Source: an uncultured Prolixibacteraceae bacterium
GTDB lineage: Bacteria > Bacteroidota > Bacteroidia > Bacteroidales > Prolixibacteraceae
Length of the DNA: 34,691 bases
Assembly: GCA_903865775.1 (NCBI GenBank)
Contig: CAIPKZ010000092.1
Span: 1-34,691 of the forward strand
Direction: 5' to 3'
The notes below the pieces were generated by a model, which had not been told where the DNA came from, made no database searches, and worked only from the letters and a program-made list of their open reading frames with translations. Below, one piece after another: positions 6,101-25,782 of the stretch. The translations under genes and the position numbers were made by a program. Each line of letters opens with the position of its first letter. Within the stretch, counting starts at the first letter, position 1.

Positions 6101-6986
6101 GGGGAATTAATCCCGATTCGAAATACTGAACAGCAAAAATTTCGGTAACTCCGTTATCTAGTATAATTGAAATACGGATCCCATCGTTTGGATCGACTTC
6201 AGCCGGAATTGATAGCTCGAAGGATGTTTCGCCGGCGGTATTGGTTATTGGCAGTAAAGTTCCTTTTGAATCAGCCGTAAGCGACTGACTGTTTATTTGA
6301 TATACTTCTTTGTTGTTGTCAATTTGGTTATTAACCGATACATCCAGTTTGAATTGATAGTTTGCAACAGGATTTCCTTTTGCGTCGATAGCTTTCAACT
6401 GAATGGTGCTTTTCGCTCCTTTTGCGATTGGTGTTATTACTGAAACCGTTGTTTTTAGTGGTACATTTTGCTGGATTGAACCAAAAACTTTCCATTCCAG
6501 GATGCCCTGTGCCGCGGTGCTGATGCAATACAAGCGAATTTTATTGGTTAACACAGCACCCAAATCGGTAACGTTGTATTTATCGGCAGAAACGCCAACC
6601 TGAGTTTCGATTTTCACCCATTTTCCTGAGAAAATGTCCCAGTATTCGAGGTAGCTGCTGTATGGAATTTGAATACCACCTCCATCGGTCCACCAATAAA
6701 CTTCAGAACGATCGATTAAGTAATAGCTTGCAAAATCGTATTCAACCCAGTTCCATTTGTTAAAATTGTCGGCACCATTCCAGTTTCCGTATGCGCTGCC
6801 ATTTTTATCGCCCGAACTTTTTGGCTCGTAACCATCATTAATGGCATTCAGTTTTTCCCAGGCTGAAACAAACGAAGTACTTAATTTACTTGCCTTCGAT
6901 GCAATGTTTTCCTGCGCTTGCGTGGACAGATTGCCAACGATCAGGAGAAAAAAAATCAGGAAGGTATATCTTAATGTTTTTATCAT
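3126..6986 (-). CDS. Large T9SS-secreted mosaic: discoidin, Ig-like repeats, DUF6055 putative zinc metallopeptidase, beta-helix, Fn3
   Basis: This protein has 1286 residues and a signal peptide ending near TQAQ (residue 25). Modules in order: F5/8 C-type-like sandwich (about 26-172); two related Ig-like domains (about 175-290 and 385-505), each ending in a PA-V-D---DGI-I segment; between them a DUF1533/Shr-HID-like domain (about 295-380); a DUF6055-type domain (about 515-775) with HELGH at 633-637 and a likely third zinc ligand Glu666 in WEACANYM; a sandwich continuing to about 918; a left-handed parallel beta-helix of hexapeptide-like repeats (about 951-1063); an Fn3 domain (about 1112-1198); and a T9SS type A sorting domain (about 1210-1286: HPNPAN, then a GLYLVRI strand). 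The metallopeptidase role rests on the motif only. The gene lies 112 bases after the GH127/146 stop and 17 bases before the GH43 start. A shorter paralogue is at 11351-12742. Confidence 0.85.
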   Translation of the reverse strand: MIKTLRYTFLIFFLLIVGNLSTQAQENIASKASKLSTSFVSAWEKLNAINDGYEPKSSGDKNGSAYGNWNGADNFNKWNWVEYDFASYYLIDRSEVYWWTDGGGIQIPYSSYLEYWDIFSGKWVKIETQVGVSADKYNVTDLGAVLTNKIRLYCISTAAQGILEWKVFGSIQQNVPLKTTVSVITPIAKGAKSTIQLKAIDAKGNPVANYQFKLDVSVNNQIDNNKEVYQINSQSLTADSKGTLLPITNTAGETSFELSIPAEVDPNDGIRISIILDNGVTEIFAVQYFESGLIPPVLVADVLENNVDHDIQISFEDQPAWRSAVSKVTVDGVALEPADYSVSAGSLILKPSNANKLLTKSGTKAITVIAVGFVPQLLNQEIQAGAINLKNSSINSGVNIYRPSTTTQFVYAFDSFKNPIKGYVFKYDVELINKTSTTVEAFKVGGLAVASSSVGNTLSATDSEGKSSLGITVPAVVDLQDGIQIRFKSNDGNTPLDPAIGYIHQSGEKEVYVPKDILALKEFSWDQTAQSKNFVAFWGSKTGPNPLKPSAGGVSFDPNVILNELETYYTFYLDSMKFILNPNEGNMGKYKFAIVLFNSWNVGYADNGAYGASVDDVIGCMWMTPRGGFVIAHELGHAFQAMIPIQYPKKGFKNINDNKNVGMYWEACANYMGFLSSGETGNMISPLFANTSMLQYLSTIDYRQYEAIYLPAYIIDKFGIKALGKQWRAADVGDNPFDALGKGLGMTRDEMRREAGLFAMHNVTWDYSIGDLIKNSLYTSDPSVICREYTFLQPIKDKANTFIVPREMAPADYGYNIIPVFPNEGASEVTAKLSGYENQPAKGGGWSYGFVAIDAAGKPRYEAVALESDVQATLTIQPTDQKFYLVVIASPKATNTYAWTPSWPTVYRFPYSIQFENALPSGQKDGYNSQKNTISGSAHPNGGGWVASTASVAPTAFVGTNAQVLGKAKVQGKARIEDFAIITDDAVVKDSALIRGNAIVGKKATVYGAGLVEKAARVYGGKISDHGVVTGSAVAFNCSVSGNAVLKDVSWLTGAAISGNAVVGGDQNKFTTCNEGVYLQLSRATCDKNLWSPANNDVNQLVDQYTYPLGDIPEAPQNLSATVYKGTSVVLNWNASHDNEEITNYIVFINGKADHLSTSLTDTISGLKENTAYRFSLIARDNAGNFSVQSDEVKTSTLVSSTEIRKKTAEKIHIHPNPANSEFTINMNDTRNATVFICDSTGKLLYKSAFNDELKLNKNILKGDGLYLVRIDTEKESATGKLIISN

Positions 6987-9462: not shown

Positions 9463-9906
9463 TTGTTTATATCTGTTGGAATACGGTTTTAAATCACTCA
9501 TTCTATGTTCTGCTATGGGCGTATGATAAACGAAAGTTTGAAGTACTACAATTTACCTTCTTTTTGCCTTACCATATGTTCAAATAACTAGCACTTTTGT
9601 GTTGAGGAGTAAATCCATCAAAGGGTATCAGGTGCTGGCTAAAAAAGAATAATTAATTCATATAGAGGTAGCTGTTTTACAATTGCAATCGAAATAGAAT
9701 ATAAACAGAAGAATTTCTCATTTTATAAAATCTCATTCTGGCATCAAATTCTGTTTGTCCGGAAAGATTGGGAACACAATGATTTGCCGTATTTTGCTTA
9801 CTGATTCCATTGTTCTTTAACCAGTCAGGGAGTCTCAGCAGGAAAAAATCTCACAATACCGAATTGGGAAAATTAGGTATTATGTTTGAGATAAGAATCA
9901 AAATCA
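9463..9906. other. Gene-free stretch upstream of the GH127/146 gene
   Basis: No coding frame here looks real. The stretch lies between a terminator (9907-9941) and the GH127/146 start, so it should hold a promoter, but I found no convincing Bacteroidota pair of TTTG and TAnnTTTG on the minus strand. CAAATAACTA at 9581 and CAAAGGGTA at 9619 are partial matches at the wrong spacing. Confidence 0.5.
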
Positions 9907-9995: not shown

Positions 9996-11042
9996 TTATT
10001 CGCTAATACTAACTTTCTTAACCTGAGTGCCTTTTGATGTTTCAACAGCTACCAGATACAAACCTTTTTGGCTCATTGAAATGTTGCAGTTGCTTGTATT
10101 CAACCCGCTTACCACTTTAACCAAACTTCCAGAAATGCTATATACACTTACTTTGGCAATTGTTGAGCTGGCAGCATCGATATGAATTAAACCAGCCTGA
10201 TTGGAATATGCTTTTACGTCGTTGTTAGTTGTGCTTACATTAACTTTGGTTGGAGCGCCTTCTTTATCGTGAGTTAAAATGAAATCATCAAGAATACTAG
10301 AGGTAAAATAATCAGCAGCAGGAGCATCACCTGACCAGAAATTACATTGTGCTACACCAACTTGCAAATCGATTCCTTCAAAATCTGGTCGTTCGCATGA
10401 AACAGTTTCGATCCACACTTTGCCATCTTTGCTTAAGAGCAGAGTGAATTTAGTCCCAACACGTGCAATTTTCATATAAGGATAATCCTTGATCTGATAA
10501 TTAGGAGTTTTTGCAACATCCATTGTGTTTACCAATTCTGTTTGAGCACCATCTATAACAGTCTTAATCATAGAATGAATGTTGAATGCCTCAAAGAACA
10601 TAGCGTAAATGGTATTTTGTTTGCTGTGGTCAGGATTGCGGATAAGAATACCCGTTGAATTATATTCTGTAAAGGCAGCTTTCCCATCAAATGTCATAAA
10701 ATCACCACCGGTAATCTTAACCTGAACTTCGAAATCAACACCAGCAACAACAGTCCTGTATAAAAAGGCTCCATCGTCATGGTTGCCTTCCCAACCACCA
10801 TTTGAGGTTTTGAAAACTAATCCACCATCAACAGCATTTAATCCCATTACTGTGCTGGTCTGCTCAGCCAATACTACTCCTGAATTGAATTCAAAACCTT
10901 TCCATATACCTGTTTTAAAATCAGATTTTAGATAATCAACCGGAGTAGAAAAATCATCGGAATAAGTTACAACTTGTGCTTTTAATGAGGTACCACCCAC
11001 TAAGAACACCAATAAGAGTGTCAAAAAAGTAAAATTTCTCAT
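9996..11042 (-). CDS. DUF1349/LamG-like beta-sandwich protein with T9SS sorting domain
   Basis: The chosen start at 11042 gives 348 residues beginning MRNFTFLTLLLVFLVGGTSLKAQ, a good signal peptide; an in-frame ATG at 11096 would add 18 residues in front of it. Residues about 25-265 look like a concanavalin-type sandwich of the DUF1349 or 3-keto-disaccharide-hydrolase-like group: YSDDFSTPVDY at the start, GILIRNP, a KVWIETVSCERPDF strand and a DDFILTHD finish. The last 75 residues are a T9SS type A sorting domain (VSVYSISGSLVK, KGLYLVAVET, KKVSISE). The protein should be exported and fixed at the cell surface. It is more likely a carbohydrate-binding accessory than an enzyme; no catalytic residues can be named. 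It follows the DUF6055 gene after a 308-base gap and is the last gene before the terminator at 9907-9941. Confidence 0.78.
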   Translation of the reverse strand: MRNFTFLTLLLVFLVGGTSLKAQVVTYSDDFSTPVDYLKSDFKTGIWKGFEFNSGVVLAEQTSTVMGLNAVDGGLVFKTSNGGWEGNHDDGAFLYRTVVAGVDFEVQVKITGGDFMTFDGKAAFTEYNSTGILIRNPDHSKQNTIYAMFFEAFNIHSMIKTVIDGAQTELVNTMDVAKTPNYQIKDYPYMKIARVGTKFTLLLSKDGKVWIETVSCERPDFEGIDLQVGVAQCNFWSGDAPAADYFTSSILDDFILTHDKEGAPTKVNVSTTNNDVKAYSNQAGLIHIDAASSTIAKVSVYSISGSLVKVVSGLNTSNCNISMSQKGLYLVAVETSKGTQVKKVSISE

Positions 11043-11350: not shown

Positions 11351-12742
11351 TTATTTTAATACCGAATCATCGAAGGTTGTTCCCGACAACTGAATCTGAT
11401 AAGGCCACTGTTCATCGTTCTCGTCTTTCCCATCAATTTCGTGAGTCCAATGTTCGGTAGGCGCTCCACTTACAACCAACCACAAGAATTTTGTATTTTG
11501 CGGAACCTTGAATTTTGTTTCCCCAATGGCTTCTGAGTTTACTTTGCCATAAACACGACTGCCATCTTCTTTTACAGCAACAAATCCATAACGCCAACCG
11601 GCTTTTTCTACCTTCATTGACCGGTATCCTTCAGTGCCGGCAATACCTTTAAATTTCAGTATGAGCCAGGTACCAGCAGCCGGAACTTTCAATTTTATGC
11701 CGTTGTATCCGTAATTCTGTGGGCATTTACTTTCATCAATTTTGTACCAGCCACCATCCATTGAATCGAGTTTACTGCTGTGCTGATTGGCGTATATTTT
11801 TGCAACTTGATCAATGCGTTTCATATCCCAGGTTATAAACCTGCGGGTGGCATCAAAAATCTCATCGTTAAACTCATACTGATTAAGGCCTGTTAAACGT
11901 TTATAAGTCATGACCGGATCTTCATCCTTTTTCCCTTCACGCCACATTTTCCCAATAAAATCAATCCCACGTTTATTCGACCAAAACTCCAAAACATAGG
12001 GAGAATGGTACATGTTTTTTTCATGCAAAAAAGCGTAATGAGTTTGTTTCATAAAATCAACCAAATGGTAGTTTTCAAAAGTCATCCATTCGGGGTAAAC
12101 CTGCCACAACATGTATTGCGATGTCATTTCAACAAACGAATAGCTTCCACCTCCCTCGGTTGAAGTGGTATCACCCTTGGCTTTATCTGCACTTAATATA
12201 TACTGAAACGAATGTCCCAGTTCATGAGCTAAGGCTCCAAAAGGCGCTTTGCTCATCCTTGCCGGAGGCGCCCAAAACATCCCAACTTTGTGATCTTCAC
12301 CACCTCCAAAGGCAGTTCCTTCGTTTGAATCAATAATGAAAATCAAGCATTTATATTTATCTGTCAATGAATTGCCTTTCTCCACAAACTTCAAATCGTT
12401 GACATAGTATTCATATACCCGTTCACTTTCTTTTAAAATCTCACCAACATTAAACCGTTGAGTTAAATCAGGATTTGTCATCGGGTCGTTTCCAAATTTT
12501 TTAGACCAGAAAACAGCTATATTTTTCGATTCCTTCATCCGGTTAAAACAATACTCGCTTGTATCGTTTTTAAAGTCATTATTATCCGGCACGTTCCAAA
12601 TTTTGGCAGGTAGGTATAACTCCTTTTCAAGGTGTTTTGCAATACTGTCAGCAGATTTATTTTCAAAAGAATAAACATGCTGAGTTGTTAGGAAAGCAGC
12701 AAGTAGGATTACTACCCTTTTATAGGAAGAATTAAACATCAT
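11351..12742 (-). CDS. DUF6055-family putative zinc metallopeptidase (short form)
   Basis: This 463-residue protein has a signal peptide (MMFNSSYKRVVILLAAFLTT..., cleavage near YSF); the second Met could also be the start. The domain matches the DUF6055 region of the 1286-residue protein at 3126-6986: an N-terminal NIAVFWSKKFGNDP segment (NFVAFWGSKTGPNP in the paralogue), HELGH at 173-177 and Glu205 in VEMTSQYM, 27 residues after the second His (28 in the paralogue). This HExxH...E layout fits gluzincin-type zinc peptidases, with Glu174 as the catalytic base. The C-terminal sandwich (about 330-455, with GWRYGFVAVKEDG) is also shared. There is no T9SS tail or lipobox, so it may be periplasmic or released. 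Peptidase activity is inferred from motif only. It starts 30 bases after the CotH gene. Confidence 0.82.
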   Translation of the reverse strand: MMFNSSYKRVVILLAAFLTTQHVYSFENKSADSIAKHLEKELYLPAKIWNVPDNNDFKNDTSEYCFNRMKESKNIAVFWSKKFGNDPMTNPDLTQRFNVGEILKESERVYEYYVNDLKFVEKGNSLTDKYKCLIFIIDSNEGTAFGGGEDHKVGMFWAPPARMSKAPFGALAHELGHSFQYILSADKAKGDTTSTEGGGSYSFVEMTSQYMLWQVYPEWMTFENYHLVDFMKQTHYAFLHEKNMYHSPYVLEFWSNKRGIDFIGKMWREGKKDEDPVMTYKRLTGLNQYEFNDEIFDATRRFITWDMKRIDQVAKIYANQHSSKLDSMDGGWYKIDESKCPQNYGYNGIKLKVPAAGTWLILKFKGIAGTEGYRSMKVEKAGWRYGFVAVKEDGSRVYGKVNSEAIGETKFKVPQNTKFLWLVVSGAPTEHWTHEIDGKDENDEQWPYQIQLSGTTFDDSVLK

Positions 12743-12772: not shown

Positions 12773-15700
12773 TCAATGATTATAAATCACTTTTCGGGTT
12801 TGAGTACCTGTTTGAGTTTCAATTTTCAGTAAGTATATGCCCGAATTGATATTGAGTTGCTTTAAATTGATTGTCGTAACTGATTGAAACGAATACTGGT
12901 AAATGAGCCTTCCGTTTAAGTCAAGCAGAAATGCATTAACTGGCTCATTACGGTTTCCGTTTTCGAGCCTGATGGTGACAGACTCGCTGGTTGGAACCGG
13001 AAAAACAGTAAGTGCAAATTCATTTGAAATGTCACCGGATATCCGATCAATAATGCCATCATCGTTGGCAAAAGGAGAACCATCTAATTTGGACGATTTT
13101 TTCCAATAGCTGAAATCATTGGGATCGCTTGTCGGATTTTTCTCAACTGAAGTCAGAGTATATTCATCACCATCAGCTTCAACCGGCCAGGGAGCAGCAT
13201 CGTCGTAGGTAAACGAGCTGATTTTGTCGCCATTTCGGTTAGCGAGCAGAACATATTCGCCACCATTGTTGAACTTGTTCTCATAATTACCACTGGGATA
13301 AACTCCGTATTGACTGTAAAACGAGTTGGGTTTCGATGCCACCACATAAAAAGCTCCGGGAGCCAGCAAGGTATTTTCCGGAAATGTATAATTCGCCGCC
13401 GAATCCAGTTTTAATCCTGAAAGGTCGAGAAAACTGCTGCCTGTATTTTTAAACTCGATGAACTCGAAGTTATCGCCATCGATGGTATCAGTAGCGGTAT
13501 ATTGCTCCATCGGATGGTAATGTAGTTCTGTTACTTTCAAGGCAGAGTAATCCTGATTTTCGATTGAAAAAATCATTTTTGTCAATGGACTCCATGAATT
13601 GCTTATTTTTATTCGAGCAGTTATTACCGAAGTTTTGTCCAGATTCATTTCAACATTGCCTGAACTGGTGATTGCCTTACCTGAAAGTTGTCCGCCCACC
13701 AATCGGGGATCTGTCCCATCCGTGGTATAACAGATTTGTCCGGAGGTATTAGAATTTTGAATAGAAACAGGAGTACTTCCTGAAATCATTGTTTTATCGC
13801 TTGTAATTTTAACTCCCGATTTTATAATGTCCGGAGAATTATAGTCTGAATAAAGTTTTTCGTCTTTGAGCTGCCCTACTACAATACCTGTTCGTGCCGG
13901 AAAATAATTGGTATACATCGAATTAATTTCGGGTAACCAATCGTCGTTTTTGGTACGCGATGGCCAAGTTTGGGCATCGCCCCACCTAGCCGATTCTGCA
14001 ATTACCGCAGTTTCGATCTGATCGGCTCTTTTCTTAAATAGTGCTTTGGTTTTTTCAGGAGATAATATGCCGCCCTCTTTGAGGTATTTCATAGCCCGGT
14101 CAGCAAAACGCAAGCGGTACTCTGCATTCGAGCATAACTTGTAATGAAGCCATTGCGGATTAAAATTGAGTACATTGCTTATTCGCATTTGGCCATTTGA
14201 ACCAATATTTGCCCGATTTTCATTAATTCCGTCTCCATTAATGTTCTCGACAAACAAACAATGTTCTGCATCATGTCCTACAAAATGATAGCCTAATGAA
14301 TTATTCTCACGGTTGAACAAAGCAAAAAAATTGTTAGGCATATCGTTACCATACCAGGCCGATACCGGTGCATCAATGTTACCAGAATAAAAGATCACTA
14401 ACATATAGTCAATCAGGTTGTCAATATCGACCAGAACATTGCCGCCTGAGACAGCATTTCCATTTTCATCTTTGCTTTCGAGAGAAAAATAAGATCTATT
14501 GGTTTGAAAACCTGACTGGCATAAATTCCATAAATTAGTCCATGAATCCATATTTCCATCAGTTGCAATATCGTAATAAGGCCAAGGTTGAGTATCAACC
14601 TTAATAACATCATAATCATCCTTATCGCCGCCAAGATATGAAGCCCCAAAACTTGATTCAGGTCGTTCGTCGGTTTGGAAAAGTCCCCAATACATTCCAT
14701 TCAGGTATAGGTGGTAATAACGACCTTTGGAGTATGGTTCTCCCATTAATCCTTGTAAATCCCGACAAAAAACGTCTTTCACCATGGTATTATGCGTATC
14801 ACCATCCATACTCCAGGAATAATTCTGTTCACATCGCAAATCGACGCAGTCAAATTCGCTAACTCCTTCATCCCCAAACAATGGAAACTTTAGTTTTTTA
14901 GCGCCATATTCTTCGCGAAAAAACAACCTAAACGCATGTTTCGGATTATTCAGGTTCTTTGCGCTGTTTCCTCCACGAACGCGTAAGCCTGCGTTAATCT
15001 GAAAACCTGGATCACCATTGGGATTAATCAGTTCTACCGAACAATCACGTTCCCATTCATCACCTTTTTCAGGAGAATTAACGTAAATTCCGGTTGCCGG
15101 ATCGAACAGGTTTTTCAGATCGGTTGAAATGGAAATAGTTGGAATTTGCAATAATGCAGGAACGATCTCTGAACTGTAACCGGATACCACATCAGAAGCC
15201 ATATCATAGTCAATTCGTTGACCATTTACATTCGTAGTGGGCCATCCACCGCCAGGTGATCGCTGTAATTTTACTTGTTCAAGAAACAAAAATGTATTTG
15301 CTACCGGATTAGAAGAAGTAAATCCATCTTTTGAAAGGCTCGCACGAACAATAAATGCAGGAGTTTTCCCACGTCCGGAAATATTATCTGGATTGATCGG
15401 AACCACGACCGTTGAACCCGCAGTTTTTCTGGTTGCTGAAGTAAGTGGATTGCTGCCATCGATGGTATAAACTATACCCAACGAACTGTCAGTTGAGCTT
15501 AAAGTCAGATCGAAAGGAGTGGAATAAAATCCCGCTTTGTGGCTAAAAATCACATATTTTCCACCGGCATCTAATGGTGGTAATTCGGGTTGAGCTTGTA
15601 AACTTACATCGAAATAAAAATCAGAACTGCCCAGTGTGACATTAAATACCTGAACTGCCAAGGTGTTAATCCCTTCATTTAAATCAAGATCAGTGGTTTT

Positions 15701-16150
15701 GACAACAAAACTGACTGGCACACCCGGATCGTGGTTGACCAATGCCAGAGCTGTATTCGAAATTGTGGAGGGGACATTCTGACGGGTGGCTTCTTTACCG
15801 TTGATCCAAATTATAAAACCATCGTCATAATCGGCAGTTATTGTGAGCTGATTGATGTTTTGAGTGTTTCCGGCAGTAAATGTGGTTCTTAGGTAAAGTG
15901 TTGAATAGGAATTTCGCATATCCGAAAGCAAAGTGCCATTTGCACCTTTCCCGTAGCGGAATGGTGCCAGACCACTGCTCCAGATTGCATCTATAAAATC
16001 CGTGGAAGTCCAATCGGAGGATAAGTTTGCAGCGTTGTTCCCCTTAAGGTATTTAAACTCTGAACCGGATTTGAAATTAACCTGTGAAAAACATGAAAAT
16101 GCAAATCCTACAATCGATATCAGGAAAACAGGAAGGAACTTAAGTTTCAT
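12773..16150 (-). CDS. CotH-kinase-like multidomain protein with lamin-tail and T9SS domains
   Basis: This protein has 1125 residues and a signal peptide ending near CFSQ (residue 23). Modules in order: a PA14/discoidin-like sandwich (about 25-188, with DDGFIIWINGKE); a chitobiase C-terminal-type domain (about 198-288, with YTIDGSNP); a CotH-type domain (about 335-715, with LRVRGGNSAK, KHAFRLFFREEYG, YHLYLNGMYWGLFQTDERP and the late FVGHDAEHCLF); a second chitobiase-type domain (about 785-862, with YTTDGTDP); a lamin-tail domain (about 870-1000); and a T9SS type A sorting domain (about 1045-1125). CotH of Bacillus spore coats is a protein kinase; secreted Bacteroidota relatives have no settled role, and I cannot confirm kinase residues by eye. 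The start lies 9 bases after the stop of the sulfatase-like gene, so the two are co-transcribed. Confidence 0.83.
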   Translation of the reverse strand: MKLKFLPVFLISIVGFAFSCFSQVNFKSGSEFKYLKGNNAANLSSDWTSTDFIDAIWSSGLAPFRYGKGANGTLLSDMRNSYSTLYLRTTFTAGNTQNINQLTITADYDDGFIIWINGKEATRQNVPSTISNTALALVNHDPGVPVSFVVKTTDLDLNEGINTLAVQVFNVTLGSSDFYFDVSLQAQPELPPLDAGGKYVIFSHKAGFYSTPFDLTLSSTDSSLGIVYTIDGSNPLTSATRKTAGSTVVVPINPDNISGRGKTPAFIVRASLSKDGFTSSNPVANTFLFLEQVKLQRSPGGGWPTTNVNGQRIDYDMASDVVSGYSSEIVPALLQIPTISISTDLKNLFDPATGIYVNSPEKGDEWERDCSVELINPNGDPGFQINAGLRVRGGNSAKNLNNPKHAFRLFFREEYGAKKLKFPLFGDEGVSEFDCVDLRCEQNYSWSMDGDTHNTMVKDVFCRDLQGLMGEPYSKGRYYHLYLNGMYWGLFQTDERPESSFGASYLGGDKDDYDVIKVDTQPWPYYDIATDGNMDSWTNLWNLCQSGFQTNRSYFSLESKDENGNAVSGGNVLVDIDNLIDYMLVIFYSGNIDAPVSAWYGNDMPNNFFALFNRENNSLGYHFVGHDAEHCLFVENINGDGINENRANIGSNGQMRISNVLNFNPQWLHYKLCSNAEYRLRFADRAMKYLKEGGILSPEKTKALFKKRADQIETAVIAESARWGDAQTWPSRTKNDDWLPEINSMYTNYFPARTGIVVGQLKDEKLYSDYNSPDIIKSGVKITSDKTMISGSTPVSIQNSNTSGQICYTTDGTDPRLVGGQLSGKAITSSGNVEMNLDKTSVITARIKISNSWSPLTKMIFSIENQDYSALKVTELHYHPMEQYTATDTIDGDNFEFIEFKNTGSSFLDLSGLKLDSAANYTFPENTLLAPGAFYVVASKPNSFYSQYGVYPSGNYENKFNNGGEYVLLANRNGDKISSFTYDDAAPWPVEADGDEYTLTSVEKNPTSDPNDFSYWKKSSKLDGSPFANDDGIIDRISGDISNEFALTVFPVPTSESVTIRLENGNRNEPVNAFLLDLNGRLIYQYSFQSVTTINLKQLNINSGIYLLKIETQTGTQTRKVIYNH

Positions 16151-16159
16151 AAACCGATT

Positions 16160-18145
16160 TTAAAATGATTCTCCGGTGGAAATATTTGCGGAATATACTG
16201 TGCCGTCCAGCTTCGCGCCACGTGACAGTTTTCCGTAGGATTTGATCCAGCCGGCTACTGAATTACCTGCAAATAGCAAACGCGATTGTGCTTGTGGATG
16301 CCCCTGTTGCACAGTCAATGGCCAGATCGTTTGAAAGCTGTAATTTGTTGATAAAGCATTCGATGAAATATTCATTGTTCCTGAATTGTCAATATTTAAT
16401 TCGACCTGAAACCTTTTTCGTGAAATGATTTCAGGAATACGGTAAATTTCTTCCTTACCCCATTTTCTGATTCCAAAGCATAACTGACCATTTTCGACAT
16501 ACAATGAAAAGCCATGAACATTCTCAATGCTGTACAATACAATCGGACCGCTGGCATTGGCTTTCAGTTGAAGATCTGCTTTCAGTTTTAAAGCTTTCCC
16601 GGGGAAATAGGGGGTTTCATTATCATACAAACTTTGGCCGTTCTTCAATTGAACCTTTTTGATCAACAGCTGGTATTCCTGACGGTTTGCAAGTGAGGTA
16701 TTTATTCCGGGATAAAAATCAAGAAGTAATTTTTGCAGAGAATCTTTTTTCTGCTTGAATTCTGGAAGGTCGTAAACGTTTTTTAATTCGTTTGGATCTG
16801 CTTTGCGGTTGTACAATTCACCTTCATTATAAGTTGTGTACAAGCCCATCTTATATTTGTCAGTAACAACTGCATAGTTATTCAGAACTTCCATAAAAGT
16901 ATGGTCCGGAGCATTTTTTTCTCCTTTCATAACCGGGACGATGGATTGGCCATCTAATGCATCGTAGATATTAAGCTTTGCTAATTCCAAAAAAGTCGGA
17001 AGCAAGTCGACATGAGAAGTAAATCCTTTGATATGTTGACTTTTCAAGTGTTTTGGCCACAAGACTACTAACGGAACATGAGCCGACCGTTCGTAAAAAA
17101 CTCCATTTTGAAACAGGTGATGATCACCAAGCATTGATCCGTTGGTTGAGGTAAAAACGATGATGGTATTATCGAGCTGACCCTGCTTCTTCAGTTCGTT
17201 GAGGATTTCACCAATCTGACTGTCGATAAGTGATAAATTTCCATAAAATCTGGATTTGATTTCCTGCAGAACGGAAGGAAGTAATTTCGGATCAACATCG
17301 GTTGCATCGGCAATTGAACGATTGTATTGGTAACGGCACAAGCTCTGGTCGAATGGCTTATTTTTCAGCTCTCCCTCTTTGCTTCTTGTGGATGAGAAAT
17401 TGGTGTTTTGATGATTTTCTTTTTGTGAATCGTTGGTTAACCAGGAGTATTGAGGTCCATTAAATGAAACCCATAAGAACCAGTCTTTATTTTTACTTAA
17501 TTTTTTTTCACGGATATAATTTACCGTTTTTGAGCCAATGAAATGATCAATATTTAGGGTGTCAGTCAATGACCATTCATTTATACCTTGTATTTTAGCA
17601 TTTTCAATGTTCTTCAGATAATCCCAACGGGTGTATTTATTTTTCTTGAGGAAGAAATAATAATCATCATGTTTTAAAGTATCACTTGCTATTGAACCAT
17701 AGCCATCAGCAATAATGCGTTCATGGAAACCGGCCTTTCGCTCCCATGGTTTGAGCTGCAATTTACCAATTCCAATAGTCTGGTAGCCAGCTTTGGATAA
17801 TTGCTCCATCAGTATCGGAGTTCCTTCATGCATCCAGTTTGCACCATCTTCCATCATTTGATGGTTGTGCGGATATCTTCCGCTTAAAATGGAATAAAGC
17901 GCTGGTACGCTTGATGGAGCAGCACAATAATGATTTTCAAAGACCACACCATCCTGATATAACTTATCGATAACAGGTAAATCCAAATCGTGGTTTACGG
18001 CATGAACATCTTCCCATGCCTGGTTTTCAGTCGTAATAAAAAGGATATTTGGTCTTTTCTGGTCACCGGAGCCCGAGCAAGCAGCCATCAGGAAAATTCC
18101 GATTGCTAAAATCACTATTCCGGCACTACTTCTGGTTCTGTTCAT
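16160..18145 (-). CDS. Sulfatase-fold lipoprotein with degenerate active site (probable pseudo-sulfatase)
   Basis: I prefer the ATG at 18145 (661 residues) over the long open frame from 18244. It gives MNRTRSSAGIVILAIGIFLMAAC, a lipoprotein signal with the acylated cysteine at residue 23. The fold is clearly S1-type sulfatase: RPNILFITTE at 31-40, CAAPSSVPALYSILSGRYP at 74-92, IGKLQL at 126-131, SFNGPQ at 227-232 and FTSTNGSMLGDHHL at 331-344. The chemistry is missing: the Asp-Asp metal pair is Glu40-Asn41; the C/S-x-P-x-R maturation motif reads Ser79-Val-Pro-Ala-Leu83, without Arg; the GKxH His is Gln130; the later His is Gln232; the Asp of S-D-H/N-G is Thr334. Lys128 and Asn335 remain. A sandwich-like C-terminal region covers about 515-661. 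Possibly a sugar-binding pseudoenzyme. The reading frame is intact, so this is not simple decay. Confidence 0.8.
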   Translation of the reverse strand: MNRTRSSAGIVILAIGIFLMAACSGSGDQKRPNILFITTENQAWEDVHAVNHDLDLPVIDKLYQDGVVFENHYCAAPSSVPALYSILSGRYPHNHQMMEDGANWMHEGTPILMEQLSKAGYQTIGIGKLQLKPWERKAGFHERIIADGYGSIASDTLKHDDYYFFLKKNKYTRWDYLKNIENAKIQGINEWSLTDTLNIDHFIGSKTVNYIREKKLSKNKDWFLWVSFNGPQYSWLTNDSQKENHQNTNFSSTRSKEGELKNKPFDQSLCRYQYNRSIADATDVDPKLLPSVLQEIKSRFYGNLSLIDSQIGEILNELKKQGQLDNTIIVFTSTNGSMLGDHHLFQNGVFYERSAHVPLVVLWPKHLKSQHIKGFTSHVDLLPTFLELAKLNIYDALDGQSIVPVMKGEKNAPDHTFMEVLNNYAVVTDKYKMGLYTTYNEGELYNRKADPNELKNVYDLPEFKQKKDSLQKLLLDFYPGINTSLANRQEYQLLIKKVQLKNGQSLYDNETPYFPGKALKLKADLQLKANASGPIVLYSIENVHGFSLYVENGQLCFGIRKWGKEEIYRIPEIISRKRFQVELNIDNSGTMNISSNALSTNYSFQTIWPLTVQQGHPQAQSRLLFAGNSVAGWIKSYGKLSRGAKLDGTVYSANISTGESF

Positions 18146-18312: not shown

Positions 18313-19224
18313 TTATCTTCTCCATTCATTTATTCCATCCCTTATTCGGTTTCTCCAAACCAAGGTTGTTGAGGCTGTTTGATATGAATTATTTGCTGAT
18401 ACTACTTTGTAATTTAACACAAAAGTAGAAGTCTTAGGATCATAGGTATTACTACCTGTTGGTACAATGACATTTGCTGCTGAAGCTGCAGTATTACTGA
18501 TTTTAACAGATTTATCAGGGTTAACAACTAACTTCATTTCATAAGCACTGATTTTAGTAGTATTAATCATATTGACCATTCCATTGGCAACTACAGTATC
18601 GAGAGAAAGCGTAGTAAATGTCAAAACATTCTTTACATTGGCTTTGCTTTTTTGCACTCCATCAGCCGAAAAAGATGTTACAACGCTTGTTTGATCATAG
18701 AATCCCGAAAAATGGTTAATGTACTTAACAACAATGATTTTGGTATTCTGAGTCGCTAAAATTGAATCCTCCGAGGTAGCCGTCAAACGAAATGGAATGG
18801 CATAAATATTTTTCACGGCTTTTGGATCGGATAAAAACTTTACCGAGTCGAGTACGATGGTCACTTTTCCCAGCGTACTGCCTGATTTAATTTCAAACCG
18901 TGAAGGATTACTTAAGGTGTAATATGATGCCGGCATCAATTCATAACCTAATTTTTTAATCGCAGCATTATCCATCAAAGAGGGGTCAACGACAAAATCA
19001 GCCCATCGGTCTTTCCTGTTGTCAAGGATTCCTGCCAGATAAATGCCAGCCTCTAATTTCAAACCTTCATCTTTCACCACACTCCGATGCAAAACACCCA
19101 CTACTCCGGATCCTCCATCAGCTGTAGAGAAAGCAACGGCTGATGTAGGATTATCAACCCTGAATTCATCGTAGCAACTTGCTAAAACACAAGCCAGGCA
19201 AACTATTATTAGTAATTTTTTCAT
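18313..19224 (-). CDS. DUF1735/DUF4361-type surface glycan-binding lipoprotein (SusE position)
   Basis: This 303-residue lipoprotein begins MKKLLIIVCLACVLASC, with the acylated cysteine at residue 17. Residues about 30-170 resemble the DUF1735 Ig-like domain (AVAFSTADGG, AGIYLAGILDNRKDRWADFVVD, MPASYYTLSNP, LDSVKFLSDPKA, AIPFRLTATSEDSILATQ). Residues about 175-303 look like a DUF4361-type domain. Proteins of this kind are surface glycan-binding partners encoded just after SusCD pairs. Here the gene lies 31 bases after the second SusD and ends the importer unit at a strong terminator. The ligand is unknown. Confidence 0.83.
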   Translation of the reverse strand: MKKLLIIVCLACVLASCYDEFRVDNPTSAVAFSTADGGSGVVGVLHRSVVKDEGLKLEAGIYLAGILDNRKDRWADFVVDPSLMDNAAIKKLGYELMPASYYTLSNPSRFEIKSGSTLGKVTIVLDSVKFLSDPKAVKNIYAIPFRLTATSEDSILATQNTKIIVVKYINHFSGFYDQTSVVTSFSADGVQKSKANVKNVLTFTTLSLDTVVANGMVNMINTTKISAYEMKLVVNPDKSVKISNTAASAANVIVPTGSNTYDPKTSTFVLNYKVVSANNSYQTASTTLVWRNRIRDGINEWRR

Positions 19225-19255: not shown

Positions 19256-20923
19256 CTATTTCCAACCAATGTTTTGTTTCAGGCTATTCATAATCAATGT
19301 TTGATCATAAGGAACCGGAATATAGCGCATGTAATCCTGAAATGTATGATTTTCAACATCCACGTACTGATAAACCTGTTCGGTCGAAATCTTAACCCCT
19401 CTGCTCGTATGGTTCAATGGAAGATTCATGCGACGCATATCCCAGAAACGAAAACCTTCAAAACACAATTCAATTCTCCGTTCGTTTTGAATTAAAGACC
19501 GGAAAGCATCAGTACCAGAAGCGGCCTGTTCGTCAAGATAATTATCTGCTCCGGTAATTCCACGTTGGCGGATGAGTTGAAGTGCAGCTTTCGCAGAAGT
19601 TCCCAGGACAGCATTGTTTGGTCCGTAAGCTTCATTAACAGCCTCTGCATAATTCAGGTACAATTCCGGTTTTCCGAGAAATACTTTGAGTTTATAATCA
19701 GACTTTAATTTACCGGGAACCAAAGATACTTTTACACTCAGAAGCTTTTTCATATAATATCCTGTGCGTGTACCATATTGGTTTATTCCCCCAGGCGCAT
19801 CGCTACCACCATCCTGCGTTTGTATAGTTGTCCCATTGTATAAATCACCATTGAAAAAGATAAATTTGGCAAATCGGGCATCCCGGTTTTTGTATGGATT
19901 GAGTGCATCATATACTGCACTCATTTCAATTGGATAGCCGTCGCTTGCAGGGAAAGCATCAACCAGGTTTTGTGAAGGATTGCAAGTTCCTTTTCCATAA
20001 AGTGAAGGAGGATAAAAGACGGACTCATAATAATTATCAGATGCAGGAGTTGAACTCCAAATATTATCAGTGCTTTTTGAATTGTTAAAATTGCCATAGT
20101 CGGCCAATTTGGTAAAGCCTCCTGAAGCTACAACCGCATCAGAAGCTGCTTTTGCTGCACGTTCCCAGGTTGCTTTATTCGAATTTCCAAAAGCAGGACT
20201 CGCAGCATAGAGATAAACCCTGGCCTTCAGGGCTAAAGCAGCAGCGCCACAACCACGCCCGATATTGTACAAACCAATTAACTGGTCATTCCCATTAAAG
20301 TAATTCAAGGGCAGAATCCTGAATGCCGAATCGCAATCGGCTGCAATCTGAGCCACACACTCTTCGTATGTATTACGCGGAATATCCAGATTGTCGTTTG
20401 CTGTTAGCGGCTTGGTTACAATGGGGAATCCCATAGCAACCGGACTTCCATCGATTAATCCACCATAAGCCTGAAGTAATCGCCACTGATACCATGCCCG
20501 TAAATAAAAGGCTTCCCCAATCCGATTGGCACGTAAAACTGAATCTTTGCGGTGATCGCTATTGGCATAAGGCATGTAACGACCATTTTTGAGAAACAGA
20601 TTGGTGTATTTGATCATGTTATAATTAAGCGTCCACTCCCCAATTGGGTTATTTTCTACAGTCCAACTGCCCAAGGCCAATTTATTTGTCCCCGGAACAT
20701 TCGGCACCACATTGTCGGTATAGCTTTCCAGTACATAATTCGTATTCATCTCAGAAGCTCCACTCTGACCAATTCCCAGATAGGCTGTTGTAAGAATACC
20801 TTCGCCATAATCGGCATGGCTCCATAAGGCTTCTGTTGTTTGATCCTCGGTTGGCACAGTATCCAGAAAATTACAGGAGGCCAAGGTGGTTATTGCCAGA
20901 AGGAATAAATATATATTTTTCAT
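19256..20923 (-). CDS. SusD/RagB-family glycan-binding lipoprotein (second pair)
   Basis: This 555-residue lipoprotein has the acylated cysteine at residue 17 (LLAITTLASC, then NFLDTVPTEDQ). It shows the SusD N-terminal helical signature (YLRAWYQWRLLQAYGG, with DSAFRILP further on) and the C-terminal RagB/SusD signature (YLNYAEAVNEAYG, IRQRGITG, ERRIELCFEGFRFWDMRRM), ending NIGWK. SusD proteins cap the SusC barrel and deliver glycan at the outer face of the outer membrane. It starts 17 bases after the SusC stop at 20941, and the reading order SusC-SusD-surface protein is the usual one. Confidence 0.95.
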   Translation of the reverse strand: MKNIYLFLLAITTLASCNFLDTVPTEDQTTEALWSHADYGEGILTTAYLGIGQSGASEMNTNYVLESYTDNVVPNVPGTNKLALGSWTVENNPIGEWTLNYNMIKYTNLFLKNGRYMPYANSDHRKDSVLRANRIGEAFYLRAWYQWRLLQAYGGLIDGSPVAMGFPIVTKPLTANDNLDIPRNTYEECVAQIAADCDSAFRILPLNYFNGNDQLIGLYNIGRGCGAAALALKARVYLYAASPAFGNSNKATWERAAKAASDAVVASGGFTKLADYGNFNNSKSTDNIWSSTPASDNYYESVFYPPSLYGKGTCNPSQNLVDAFPASDGYPIEMSAVYDALNPYKNRDARFAKFIFFNGDLYNGTTIQTQDGGSDAPGGINQYGTRTGYYMKKLLSVKVSLVPGKLKSDYKLKVFLGKPELYLNYAEAVNEAYGPNNAVLGTSAKAALQLIRQRGITGADNYLDEQAASGTDAFRSLIQNERRIELCFEGFRFWDMRRMNLPLNHTSRGVKISTEQVYQYVDVENHTFQDYMRYIPVPYDQTLIMNSLKQNIGWK

Positions 20924-20940: not shown

Positions 20941-23900
20941 TTAAAATTTACAAGATAAACCAATCGTGAAATTCTGATACATTGCATAGGAATTAACTCC
21001 GGCATAGGTATTCTCCGGATCCAATCCATATTTCGAAAATTCAGAAACCGAAAACAAATTACTTCCACGAACAAACACTTTACAGGCAGACATTTTCAGG
21101 TTTTGAATGGCCAAAGGTGGTAATGAGTAGCTAAACTCAACATTCTTAACCTTGAAATAAGCTGCATTTACCAGCCAAAAAGTTGAAGATTGAATGTTGT
21201 TCGTTGACGTAGTTGACAATCTTGGGTAATTATTAGTCGCTGGCCAGCTATCAAGCATTGGTTTGGTATAGTTTTGCTTTGCTCCACTTGATACGATGTA
21301 AGAATTGTAGTTTAATAAGGTTTGACCGTTGGCCTGTCCTTGTCCAACTACCAGTAAATTGAATCGTTTGTATCCTAAGGATAAATTGACACCATAAAAC
21401 AATCGTGGGGCATGAGCACCCGTGCGGAACTGATCTTTTTCATCAATTTTTTGATCGTTATTGTAATCCAAATAGCGAATATCACCTGGTTTTACATCAC
21501 CCCATATTTGGGCTGATTTTGAAGCATCGATTTCGGCCTGGTTCTGGAAAAGTCCGTCGGCCTGGTAAAGCAAAAATTCGTCCGATTGTTTGCCTGCATA
21601 TTTGCGATAATCAGGTGTTGTTGAAGGTTCATCAATGGTTACAATATGATTACGGCTGTATAGCATATTTCCGCCAATGCTTAAATTAACTTTTCCAATT
21701 TGTTTGGTGTATTGAATAGCAGCATCGAACCCTGAAGATACCGCTTCGCCATAGTTGGTCGCCGGTAAGAATTGGCCGGAACCAAAGATCGTTGGGATTG
21801 AATTTTGCTTTTGGGAAATTAAATCATAATAGCGGTTTCGGTAATAGTTCATATCAACCGATAAACTGTTGTTGAACAATGAGCTTTGAACACCAATATT
21901 CAGTATCTGCGTTTTAGGCAAAACATAATTGGAGCTTCCTTCTTGCAAAATTGTAAAGCCTGTAGTGGCATCAGCAAAAGTACCTAAAGCGCCTGTACGC
22001 AAATAACCACCTTGTTGCCAAAGAGTTTGGTACAAATAATAGGAGTTATATCCAGCCATTGAGAAATTATTGGTTCCCATAACGCCCATCGAAGCGGCAA
22101 ATTTCAAATAGTTAATACTTTTTATTTTGCGGATAAAGGATTCGTTGCTAGCGACCCAACCTAAACCCACCGTTGGATAGGTAGAAAACCGTTCTCCTGT
22201 CGGAAGCCTCATGCTTCCGGTATAAACCAAATCAGCCTGAGCAATGTATTTTGATTTGAATGTATAATTCCCTCTAAAAGAAGTGTTTTGCATTTTTTCA
22301 GGCTGATAACCGGTAAAACCTCTGCTTTCGAATGTTCCCTGGTAATAAGTCGCATTCGCTACAAAAGCATGATTGCCAAAAGTCCGGTCATAATTCAGAG
22401 TAAAATAACCAAGTGTTCGGCGAAGAATATCGCTATATGCATTAGTCTCGTCGCTCGTTACCATTTTTTGGACCATTAAAACCAACGTATCAGCGCCCGT
22501 AATGGTTTTATCCATCCGGTAAAGTGCTCCGGTTCCACCTTTAGTGTTTTGAATATCATTATAGGCATCAAATGAAACGTTTGCCTTCGCCGATAATCCT
22601 TCAGTAACTTTTTTCAAATCGAACATCAAACTGGCATTATTCTGGGTATTCAATGCAGTACGTGATCCATATCCAGTGTACAATAAGTCATTATCAATGT
22701 TAATCGGATAATCATCACTAATAATCAGCTTATCATCAACATTTGTTGGATGTGCATTTGCCGGCAATCCTGAAAGTCTGTTGAAAATATCATAGGCCTG
22801 AGAGTAAATAGTAACGTTACCATTGCTGAATGAAGCTACATTACCGCCATTGGGATATCTTCCGGTTTTAATCGTACCAGTAATACTCACATTCATTTTA
22901 ACGTTTTCGAGTAGCTTGATATTCACATTTGTCCGCATTTTAATCCGGTCGCTGCTTATCGTATTTCCAGCAGATTCTAATCCGTTATTCCCAACATAGT
23001 CAAACATGGTATAATAATTGGCCTTGTCGTCACCTCCCTTGAAATTGATATTTGCCCGGGTAAAAGGTGTTGATGATTTTAAATATTGTTTCCGGTAATC
23101 AATATTGGGATAATGAATCGGGTCGCTACCCGTTTTATAGGCATTTAAAGCTGCATCGCTGTAATAGGGATCTAATCCATCGCTGGTAAGGGCCTTGTTG
23201 TGCAAGCTTCCATAATCAAATGAATTGAGGTATTCAGGGACAGCTGTAGGGGAACTCATCCCATATTCAGCCGAAATATTCATTTCCTTTTGAAAGCTTT
23301 GTCCTTTCTTTGTTTCGATCCACAGTACAGGCGCCGAACCCATAATACCCAGAGCAGCACGTCCTGAAAAATCTTTCAGTACCTGTACCGATTCGACTTC
23401 CGAAACGGATAAATCTTCAACGCTGCGCACCAGGCCATCAACATAAACCACTGCGGTTTCGCCTCTGATCGTAACATATATGGTTTCAAAACCAGGAATT
23501 GAACTTCCCTGCTGAATGACCAGGCCGGGAATTCGTCCGGCAAGAGATTCCAGAATGTTTAAGGAGGGATAAGTTAAAAGTTCTTCTCCTTTGATTGTAT
23601 AGATTGAAGCAACATTGTGATTGGTGGTTGTTTTCATATAAGGCAGACTTACTTCATTTTTGCCATCAATAAGGTAAGTCTTTTCAAGAACAATGGGCTT
23701 AACTAATTTTTTCGCGTCAGAAATTTCAACCGTCTGGATTTTATATCCAGCCTCATTCACAAACAATTGATCAATGCGCTCCTTGTCCACTTTGATACTG
23801 AATTTCCCATCTTGGTCGGTGGTGGTCATATCATGACCATAGAAGGACTTAACTAAAATGTTTGGCAACGGTGTTGAATTTTCATCAACAATTTGAGCTG

Positions 23901-24009
23901 TCACCACGGTCGTTTCTTTTTTTTCCTTTTGGGCATGAGAGTCAAAAACTCCCAGGACACAGGAAAAAAATACAACCGGAAACAAGCTTTTTATTATCGT
24001 GTTTTTCAT
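20941..24009 (-). CDS. Divergent SusC/RagA-family TonB-dependent outer-membrane transporter (second pair)
   Basis: This protein has 1022 residues with a signal peptide ending near SHAQ (residue 27). A carboxypeptidase-regulatory-like Ig domain (about 35-110, with DENSTPLPN and TTTDQDGKFSIKV) precedes the plug (about 135-235: ILESLAGRIPGLVIQQG, VVYVDGLVRSVEDL, VESVQVLKDFSGRAALGIMG) and a 22-strand barrel ending in the aromatic IGLSCKF. Where the common SusC TonB box (VVVGYG) would be, it has EVSLPYMKTTTNHNV (119-133), as in another SusC subgroup, so it may use a variant TonB box. It imports oligosaccharides with the SusD at 19256-20923. It starts 30 bases after the stop of the other SusD, so the two pairs appear to be one transcript. 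Confidence 0.93.
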   Translation of the reverse strand: MKNTIIKSLFPVVFFSCVLGVFDSHAQKEKKETTVVTAQIVDENSTPLPNILVKSFYGHDMTTTDQDGKFSIKVDKERIDQLFVNEAGYKIQTVEISDAKKLVKPIVLEKTYLIDGKNEVSLPYMKTTTNHNVASIYTIKGEELLTYPSLNILESLAGRIPGLVIQQGSSIPGFETIYVTIRGETAVVYVDGLVRSVEDLSVSEVESVQVLKDFSGRAALGIMGSAPVLWIETKKGQSFQKEMNISAEYGMSSPTAVPEYLNSFDYGSLHNKALTSDGLDPYYSDAALNAYKTGSDPIHYPNIDYRKQYLKSSTPFTRANINFKGGDDKANYYTMFDYVGNNGLESAGNTISSDRIKMRTNVNIKLLENVKMNVSITGTIKTGRYPNGGNVASFSNGNVTIYSQAYDIFNRLSGLPANAHPTNVDDKLIISDDYPINIDNDLLYTGYGSRTALNTQNNASLMFDLKKVTEGLSAKANVSFDAYNDIQNTKGGTGALYRMDKTITGADTLVLMVQKMVTSDETNAYSDILRRTLGYFTLNYDRTFGNHAFVANATYYQGTFESRGFTGYQPEKMQNTSFRGNYTFKSKYIAQADLVYTGSMRLPTGERFSTYPTVGLGWVASNESFIRKIKSINYLKFAASMGVMGTNNFSMAGYNSYYLYQTLWQQGGYLRTGALGTFADATTGFTILQEGSSNYVLPKTQILNIGVQSSLFNNSLSVDMNYYRNRYYDLISQKQNSIPTIFGSGQFLPATNYGEAVSSGFDAAIQYTKQIGKVNLSIGGNMLYSRNHIVTIDEPSTTPDYRKYAGKQSDEFLLYQADGLFQNQAEIDASKSAQIWGDVKPGDIRYLDYNNDQKIDEKDQFRTGAHAPRLFYGVNLSLGYKRFNLLVVGQGQANGQTLLNYNSYIVSSGAKQNYTKPMLDSWPATNNYPRLSTTSTNNIQSSTFWLVNAAYFKVKNVEFSYSLPPLAIQNLKMSACKVFVRGSNLFSVSEFSKYGLDPENTYAGVNSYAMYQNFTIGLSCKF

Positions 24010-24039: not shown

Positions 24040-25782
24040 TTACCAACCCGGATTTTGTTTAAACTCATAAAACATCGTAGCATCTGATAGTCTGACAGGC
24101 CATCTATAATGTTTTTGATCAAAAGTCAGGGTAAAAATTGGAGAAGGCGATTGAGAGAATGTATAGCCTGTTGGTTTCGAGGCATCTGCTGCAATATCCA
24201 TTCCGTACAATTCCTTGTGTTCCTTTTTTGAAGCATCTCCCCAACGCGAAAGGTCGAAGAAACGTTTTCCTTCCAAATACAATTCGATGGCACGTTCATT
24301 TTTAATCCTTTCCCTGAATGTTTCTTTACTTGACAGATAACGGGAATCAACGCCAGGCATTTTGACACGCGCCCGAATCCTGTTAACCGCTTCAAGGGCG
24401 GTTAAATTTGCACCTGCCAATTTGTAATTCGGACCTCCCAACTCATTAGCTGCTTCAGCATATTGTAATAAAATATCAGCATACCTGAAGTAAATGCTGT
24501 GAGAAATGGGGTGTTGTGCCTTGGAGAATTGATCAACGTTATTGACCCAGAATTTTCGTGACAAAAATCCGGTATAACTGTAGTGTGATTTGCCATTACG
24601 TTCTTTCCCTCCGTTAAATAATTCAAGGTATAAATCGGTCTTACTGGTCCAACGTTCCTGATTAAATAAAATATTAGAATAAAAACGGGGATCGCGGTTG
24701 ATAAAAGGATTCTGATCTAAATAAGTGGCATCATCTTTAATTGAAAGGCCATTCTTGGTTTCAAACATATCAACAATGTTCTTCGTCGGACTAAAACCCT
24801 GAATGATTCCACCACTGGCTAAACTTGGTACAGTAAAAGTTGTATATCGATTACCGTTTTGCATGCCTCCGAAATTCTCCCAGATAATCTCGTCGTTATA
24901 CGGAACATAGTTGAAAATACTATCATAACCACCAGTATATGAAATAGTTTCAATTCCTGAAGGTGCTTTGTATGTTACTTTTGCAGTTGAATTACATGGA
25001 ACTAACTTGTATATTCCGTTTGATTCCGAATAATTGATCAAATCCCATGAAGCTTGTGCTGCTTTTGTCCATTTGGCCTGATCGTCAGGACTATTTGTCG
25101 GGCTGGCGCTAAACAATAGAACGCTGGCTTTCACTGCCATGGCAGCACCAATGGTTGGTCTACCTAAATTGGCATCGTCCCATTTCTTAGGTAACAGGGC
25201 CATTGCCGAATCGCAATCAGCGGCAATTTTCATTGCAGTTTCCTCGTAGCTTAAACGAGGTAATGCAAAAACATCGGTTCCTTTTAAAGATTTGGTTATA
25301 TAAGGCATACCACCCTGACGCTTCAGAAATTCATAGTAATACCATGCCCGCATAAAATGAGCCTGCCCCTTTAAAAGTTTAATTTCATCATCAGTTGCCA
25401 CACCTTTTAGTTTAGGTAGTTCCTCAAGTGAAATATTTGCAATTCGAACACTCTGCCATGAGTTCCAAACATTTGTAAACTGTAGTGCCTGACCTGCATT
25501 GTAGCAACCAAGCCAGTCTCCATTTTGAGCCTTTGGTAATGTTTCCCATTGAACTGATTCGGTATAACCTTCATCGCAAAAGGCTGCAATAAACGTGTAA
25601 TCATAATCAGCAAGATAATCATGCATGTCTTTATACATTCTATCTTCGAATTGTCTAAAGTTCAAATAATTGGTAAACACATTATCTTCAGTCATTCCGG
25701 TAGCGTCCGGTGACTTGTCTAAGTAATCTACACAACTTGTTGTGTAGAGTGCTATCGCTATAATTAAAAATATCCTTTTCAT
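24040..25782 (-). CDS. SusD/RagB-family glycan-binding lipoprotein (first pair)
   Basis: This 580-residue lipoprotein has the acylated cysteine at residue 17 (IALYTTSC, then VDYLDKSPDATG). SusD signatures: FMRAWYYYEFLKRQGGMPYI near the middle of the N-terminal half, IAADCDSAMALLPKKW, then in the C-terminal domain YADILLQYAEAANELGG, NRIRARVKMPG and NERAIELYLEGKRFFDLSRW. It ends FKQNPGW, the usual SusD finish. It starts 18 bases after the SusC stop at 25801 and should form the lid of that transporter. It is clearly different from the SusD at 19256-20923, so the two pairs probably bind different pieces of the substrate. Confidence 0.95.
   Translation of the reverse strand: MKRIFLIIAIALYTTSCVDYLDKSPDATGMTEDNVFTNYLNFRQFEDRMYKDMHDYLADYDYTFIAAFCDEGYTESVQWETLPKAQNGDWLGCYNAGQALQFTNVWNSWQSVRIANISLEELPKLKGVATDDEIKLLKGQAHFMRAWYYYEFLKRQGGMPYITKSLKGTDVFALPRLSYEETAMKIAADCDSAMALLPKKWDDANLGRPTIGAAMAVKASVLLFSASPTNSPDDQAKWTKAAQASWDLINYSESNGIYKLVPCNSTAKVTYKAPSGIETISYTGGYDSIFNYVPYNDEIIWENFGGMQNGNRYTTFTVPSLASGGIIQGFSPTKNIVDMFETKNGLSIKDDATYLDQNPFINRDPRFYSNILFNQERWTSKTDLYLELFNGGKERNGKSHYSYTGFLSRKFWVNNVDQFSKAQHPISHSIYFRYADILLQYAEAANELGGPNYKLAGANLTALEAVNRIRARVKMPGVDSRYLSSKETFRERIKNERAIELYLEGKRFFDLSRWGDASKKEHKELYGMDIAADASKPTGYTFSQSPSPIFTLTFDQKHYRWPVRLSDATMFYEFKQNPGW

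Follow-up and report, generated by a model that had tools for sequence, protein, structure and literature searches.

A conserved pseudo-sulfatase encoded in a susCD operon of an uncultured Prolixibacteraceae bacterium

Sulfatase genes in polysaccharide utilisation loci (PULs) are commonly read as a sign of sulfated substrates. Ten positions are usually listed as the active site of S1 sulfatases. Part of this list is given in the accessible text of PMC5066984. For a sulfatase-type fold that has become a scaffold, the nearest precedent is the periplasmic domain of YejM/PbgA/LapC, as described in the accessible part of PMC13125744. That protein is a membrane regulator and belongs to another branch than the protein described here; moreover, an intact metal site and phosphatase activity are reported for it in the accessible part of PMC7576196, which disputes its status as a pseudoenzyme. 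The S1_46 sulfatase BT1918 (7oz8) resembles our protein by fold only (25% identity) and has the motif residues in the aligned blocks, whereas our protein has lost them. No description of a PUL pseudo-sulfatase was found in a search of the openly readable literature.

The window is the whole analysed stretch of DNA, 34,691 nucleotides from an uncultured Prolixibacteraceae bacterium. The gene of interest, here called the pseudo-sulfatase, has the following parts.

16160..18145 (-): pseudo-sulfatase gene, 661 aa, ATG at 18145, stop at 16160
18074..18145 (-): lipoprotein-type signal peptide, residues 1-24, LMAAC with Cys23 as candidate lipid site, read by eye
16682..18061 (-): S1 sulfatase-fold domain with the catalytic set lost, residues ~29-488 (Pfam PF00884 and PF16347, model)
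16163..16681 (-): C-terminal domain, predicted laminin-G/CBM40-like beta-sandwich, residues ~489-661 (AlphaFold2 and structural match)

The reading frame runs from ATG to stop without a break over all 661 residues, as an earlier sequence-only reading of this DNA had stated. The same reading had seen a lipoprotein signal; LMAAC with Cys23, matched by eye, is a candidate lipobox, and the protein is probably lipid-anchored. Pfam Sulfatase matches residues 32-390 with 158.5 bits against a cut-off of 25, and SGSH_C matches with 82 bits. The nearest solved structures by sequence are S1 sulfatases, the best being 7oz8 (E 2.7e-39). An AlphaFold2 model built from 31 window and locus sequences reached pLDDT 88.8 and pTM 0.87, and its residues 31-488 superpose on BT1918 with Z 45.0 and rmsd 2.4 A (433 aligned residues, 25% identity). 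The Pfam score and the predicted model thus assign the protein to the sulfatase fold of the alkaline phosphatase superfamily.

An orthologue (G434:C167) was found among 140 genomes of the family, in a genome of another genus of Prolixibacteraceae (G434, 86% complete); it is 44.3% identical over 659 aligned residues. The named copy of this gene lies on JAFGEV010000141.1, a Prolixibacteraceae MAG. We aligned the pseudo-sulfatase with 138 homologous frames from the collected loci, so that 137 rows serve as comparators besides the pseudo-sulfatase and the orthologue. Two own-locus copies had been excluded, as had frames identical to others or contained in them; near-copies (e.g., from marine alphaproteobacteria) were kept. 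The alignment places the active-site positions as follows.

18023..18028 (-): E40-N41, replacing the metal Asp-Asp (Asp-Tyr in the intact subfamily described below)
17897..17911 (-): S79-V-P-A-L83, replacing the maturation motif C/S-x-P/A-x-R
17756..17764 (-): K128-L-Q130, replacing K-x-H
17450..17455 (-): P231-Q232, replacing P-H
17141..17146 (-): T334-N335, replacing the metal D-N/H/Q
17105..17107 (-): N347, replacing the active-site Lys

The pseudo-sulfatase has lost three of the four metal ligands (E40, N41 and T334 stand in their place, N335 is kept), the maturation Arg, both catalytic His (now Q130 and Q232) and the distal Lys. K128 is retained, and S79 and N335 are residues also found in intact sulfatases. 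All residues that had been named from the sequence (E40, N41, S79-V-P-A-L83, Q130, Q232, T334, N347) fall at the proposed positions; at least six of the ten had been called changed, and the count is seven. Asn347, offered as the probable counterpart of the later Lys, indeed stands where 136 of 136 comparators have Lys.

Among comparator rows with a residue at the position, the canonical one is found at D40 in 129/129, C/S79 in 131/131, R83 in 131/131, K128 in 131/132, H130 in 123/132, H232 in 133/133, D334 in 136/136 and N/H/Q335 in 136/136. Of 129 such rows, 111 carry D or Q at position 41, whereas all 13 members of an otherwise intact subfamily have Tyr there; therefore N41 alone is little informative. 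The five core sites D40, R83, H232, D334 and K347 are all canonical in each of the 128 homologues that cover all five. The pseudo-sulfatase has none of the five (E, L, Q, T, N), and neither has the G434 orthologue.

We also matched the five S1 signatures given in the accessible text of Barbeyron et al. 2016 (PMC5066984) to the 134 sequences of at least 400 aa. The pseudo-sulfatase and its orthologue are the only two that match none; ten others match just one. In the pseudo-sulfatase the maturation signature fails on SVPAL, and both Ca signatures fail as well. The signatures are strict (the first Ca-binding signature fails in 13/13 members of the intact subfamily just mentioned), so we treat this count as supporting evidence.

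Misalignment was considered and rejected: the motif blocks are free of gaps across the 15 subfamily rows, and of 100 columns that do not vary among the 13 intact members, both pseudoenzymes keep 64. Fifteen of the 100 are changed in both, and ten of these fifteen are catalytic positions or adjoin one. That the protein might still be an active sulfatase with unusual residues is extremely improbable. S79 could be a formylglycine precursor, and K128 and N335 are compatible with activity, but the motif Arg, both His, the metal Asp and the Lys are lost together, and not one of the 128 comparators that cover the five core sites has a non-canonical residue at any of them. We infer that the pseudo-sulfatase is inactive as a sulfatase.

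The pseudo-sulfatase is a pseudoenzyme branch of a known sulfatase family. In a 31-row IQ-TREE phylogeny, rooted by midpoint and outgroup rows only, it forms a 100/100 clade with the G434 orthologue, and the pair is nested in a 15-row clade with support 100/99. When the catalytic columns were masked with X, the same supports were obtained (100/100 and 100/99), so that both trees hold the pseudo-sulfatase together with the other 13 members, loci L057 and L068-L079 among those collected (12 from Bacteroidota or the same family, one from Planctomycetota). The exact sister of the pair, L069 or L074/L075, is weakly resolved. These direct relatives are ~34-43% identical in the nearest branch and ~28-35% in the other. 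Their active-site set, lost in the pseudo-sulfatase, is intact: all 13 keep C/S-x-P-S/A-R, both His, Asp-His and Lys. One intact member is carried by G521, a genome of the same family. All 13 members of this unnamed S1 subfamily have Asp-Tyr in place of the metal Asp-Asp. Judged by eye, six of them (L068, L070, L071, L072, L073 and L076) have Tat-like twin-Arg starts, and lipobox-like signals are seen in the two pseudoenzymes, L069, L057, L077, L078 and L079.

The neighbours of the gene in the window are as follows.

29359..33444 (-): hybrid two-component regulator (Reg_prop, HisKA, Response_reg, HTH_18), with a 60% relative in G434
25801..28968 (-): SusC-like TonB-dependent transporter 1
24040..25782 (-): SusD-like protein 1
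20941..24009 (-): SusC-like protein 2, with a sub-threshold CarbopepD_reg_2 match only, named by size, place before a SusD gene and eye
19256..20923 (-): SusD-like protein 2
18313..19224 (-): BT_3987/BT_3044-like protein, 167 bp upstream of the pseudo-sulfatase
12773..16150 (-): CotH kinase-like protein with lamin-tail, chitobiase-C and T9SS sorting tail, 9 bp downstream of the pseudo-sulfatase
11351..12742 (-): DUF6055 (Svx-like) protein with HELGH...E (Pfam)
9996..11042 (-): T9SS-tail protein of no other Pfam family, with a 33% relative in G434
7099..9501 (-): GH127 beta-L-arabinofuranosidase (Pfam)
3126..6986 (-): DUF6055 (Svx-like) protein with HELGH...E, a weak NeuD/YdcK-type stretch and a T9SS tail
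946..3108 (-): GH43 with F5/8C and LamG (Pfam)

The gene lies on the same strand as the susCD run, 167 bp past the BT_3987-like gene, which bears out its reported place in an operon. The G434 contig carries on one strand the regulator, the pseudo-sulfatase, aminopeptidase P, CotH, SusC1, SusD1, SusC2, SusD2 and a BT_3987-like gene. Identities between the window and G434 are 60% for the regulator, 59-60% for SusC1, 63-67% for SusD1, 46-48% for SusC2, 59-60% for SusD2, 56-57% for the BT_3987-like protein and 55% for CotH. The two loci do not arrange these genes alike; the BT_3987-like gene precedes both the pseudo-sulfatase and CotH in the window.

At the active-site positions the orthologue has E40, G41, C79, K83, K128, D130, M232, T334, Q335 and G347, and thus has lost the same sites. 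The sequence-only reading foresaw a clade sharing E-N, S-x-P-x-L, Q, Q and T: a clade with the same sites lost does exist, but of that set only E40 and T334 are shared with the orthologue, whose residues at the five core sites are E, K, M, T and G. It had further argued that conservative, isosteric substitutions point to selection for a binding pocket; this fails, because the orthologue carries G41, K83, D130, M232, Q335 and G347. The same residues bear on the idea that the remodelled pocket performs a new chemistry, e.g., metal-free hydrolysis, by means of K128, S/C79, E40 and T334. Both members have E40, T334 and K128, as well as the changes E99 and Y233, and a Ser or Cys persists at position 79. 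A shared catalytic set would not be expected to differ as this pocket does (Q/D130, Q/M232, N/G41, N/G347, L/K83), and three of four metal ligands are changed; we regard new chemistry as quite unlikely.

The selection proposed earlier is supported by sequence divergence. Comparison of the two orthologues gives a pN of 0.373 and a pS of 0.776; because pS is saturated, omega is not given. For six neighbour genes pN is 0.255-0.336 and pS 0.76-0.85. The pseudo-sulfatase is constrained, although none of the other six genes reaches its pN, which leaves room for a degree of relaxation. The sulfatase machinery of the genomes also has to be considered here. PF00884 matches three frames of the own genome, which is 99.6% complete, and the pseudo-sulfatase is one of them. 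In the other two (618 and 652 aa) C/S-x-P/A-x-R is absent; they have long hydrophobic starts and look LTA-synthase-like. G434 retains one other apparently canonical S1 sulfatase (CSPSR), which speaks against both hosts having given up sulfatases. Six genomes were searched for the anaerobic maturase anSME (TIGR03942). It scores above the cut-off in G068, G927 and G928, each of which has a Ser-type intact member; the own genome, G434 and G521 have no match above the cut-off. A search for FGE (PF03781) gave matches in all six genomes, mostly proteins of 440-780 aa. The cysteine-motif pattern matched no PF03781 frame examined, nor an FGE-looking 375-aa protein of G521, and is thus uninformative.

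One could therefore suppose that an unneeded sulfatase is degenerating in an organism without sulfatase maturation, given that the own genome has neither anSME above the cut-off nor another S1-type frame with the motif, and given the highest pN of the seven genes. Against such decay stand the frame kept intact in two genera at 44% identity, a pN well below pS, and the preserved domains and neighbourhood content. Decay is thus very unlikely, and a pseudogene was rejected. The open frame, pN below pS, the gene set shared across two genera and the 100/100 two-member clade indicate, from sequence comparison, that the pseudo-sulfatase and its orthologue are a conserved pseudoenzyme under selection.

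The two known members come from a MAG and from a 500-contig assembly. We surveyed 61 genomes of relatives, 393 + 393 of the order (overlapping draws), 140 of the family, 395 of the class, 395 of the phylum and 47 of the G068 family at cut-offs from 1e-3 to 1e-50, with at most three candidates scored per genome in the order, class and phylum draws. No third pseudoenzyme was found in these surveys, G434 being the sole further member. A related-locus search with the single pseudo-sulfatase protein gave no match; the search made from the alignment, with two peptide patterns and the best 80 of 541 confirmed places, gave the orthologue and the relatives. Because of these two patterns and this selection of places, further members may exist.

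The C-terminal ~170 residues are predicted to form a laminin-G/CBM40-like sandwich. Folded alone by AlphaFold2, residues 486-661 reached pLDDT 85.5. The model best matches the LG3 domain of laminin-G structure 7zc9_A (VIA Z 13.5, rmsd 2.9, 143 aligned) and CBM40 6er2_B (Z 13.1, rmsd 3.2, 150 aligned), which lie within 1 Z of each other, and Foldseek matches it to agrin LG (E 5.6e-7). A PDB profile search with this domain had no matches at E 1; Pfam does not match the domain of the pseudo-sulfatase, and Laminin_G_3 is found weakly in two of nine members. The domain, which has invariant H, G, R and W positions, occurs in full or in part in 7 of the 13 intact members; L074 and L075 stop after ~400 residues. 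LamG/CBM40 folds also bind proteins, and the fold alone reveals no ligand.

The lectin-like role suggested earlier is plausible inasmuch as this predicted domain follows the dead one, though not by way of an isosterically preserved pocket. Any binding is more likely to involve the LamG/CBM40-like domain, or else the outer rim of the dead one, than isosteric substitutions in the old active site, because the two orthologues differ at the pocket positions. The dead domain might alternatively be a structural scaffold that docks to SusC/SusD, CotH or the peptidases without glycan, protein-protein contact alone being selected. Its active-site substitutions differ between orthologues while most invariant subfamily positions persist, and CotH is directly downstream in the window and next but one in G434 (two genes downstream), as a scaffold would allow. 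The LamG/CBM40-like domain, however, is shared with 7 of the 13 intact relatives, which would be expected to use it in connection with glycans, and we consider a pure scaffold unlikely.

What might be bound is suggested by the neighbours. GH127 is encoded at 9 of the 13 intact-subfamily loci (L057, L068, L069, L070, L074, L076-L079; called by BLAST only at L076 and also by Pfam at the other eight), these loci not being independent, since L072-L074 come from one genome and L068 and L076 are near-identical. The four misses (L071, L072, L073, L075) are stretches of 3-15 kb. GH127 was found at no locus of two control sets, one of 66 other sulfatase loci (L081-L146, whose titles name no Bacteroidota) and one of 20 sulfatase loci from the same order, 14-20 kb long and picked from match lists blind to content. 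The intact loci L070 and L072 adjoin L-arabinose isomerase, kinase and epimerase-type genes. On the 38.6-kb G434 contig BLAST found neither GH127 nor DUF6055; this contig also carries dipeptidyl peptidase IV, aminopeptidase P and a GH27-type alpha-galactosidase, which presumably suit X-Pro peptides and galactosylated serine. The L061 contig has a DUF6055 gene at 53%.

Both DUF6055 neighbours match NCBIfam avirulen_svx (Svx/AvrXca) with HExxH...E present, at 207 and 69 bits, below the equivalog cut-off of 625; unlike Svx/AvrXca, one of them bears a T9SS tail. Svx proteins are gluzincin metallopeptidases that are presumed, by prediction, to target plant extensins (accessible part of PMC10815107), and the two DUF6055 proteins may be Bacteroidota extensin peptidases. 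The weak NeuD/YdcK matches in the 3126-6986 protein may correspond to an acyltransferase-like domain that has been reported in Svx. GH127 is tied to arabinose on extensin hydroxyproline (accessible part of PMC4454575).

As for the operon's substrate, the neighbours (GH127, GH43, two DUF6055 proteins and two SusCD pairs) point away from a sulfated sugar and towards a hydroxyproline-rich, extensin-like glycoprotein that carries arabinose. The sulfated or carboxylated sugar once proposed as ligand finds no support in this operon, and the other two PF00884 frames of the genome are without the motif. Volvox pherophorins are hydroxyproline-rich glycoproteins with arabinose and are highly sulfated (accessible part of PMC9818292), so such sulfated pherophorins are a possible substrate for the intact relatives. 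The intact subfamily plausibly acts on sulfated arabinosides.

We infer the ligand, the surface location and the binding role of the pseudo-sulfatase from this context. Rather probably, the protein with its LamG/CBM40-like sandwich belongs to a SusCD system that takes up arabinosylated, hydroxyproline-rich (extensin-like) glycoproteins, and serves there as a subunit that binds or presents them without catalysis. It would hold glycoprotein fragments at the cell, while the Svx-like peptidases, GH127 and GH43 would cut protein and arabinose. It descends from the subfamily of otherwise intact sulfatases that is linked to GH127 and, in two cases, to arabinose catabolism; the sulfate-removing step would have been lost and the glycan-facing body kept. 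More tentatively, and with some doubt, we propose a PUL pseudo-sulfatase family in which a sulfatase-LamG ancestor acting on sulfated arabinosides of algal or plant glycoproteins became a surface receptor for an unsulfated arabinosylated glycoprotein.

A conserved sulfatase fold without its catalytic set means that the inference from a sulfatase gene to a sulfated substrate can fail. The protein is a case of a hydrolase fold that probably became a receptor, and its operon is a candidate for the locus by which bacteria use extensin-type glycoproteins. The analysis also marks out a sulfatase subfamily that has no name and is linked to GH127; sulfated arabinosides may be the substrates of its intact members. 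If the proposed role is true, Bacteroidota would possess a receptor dedicated to extensin, with Svx-type peptidases and GH127 as its partners, and this would be the first PUL-encoded pseudo-sulfatase family.
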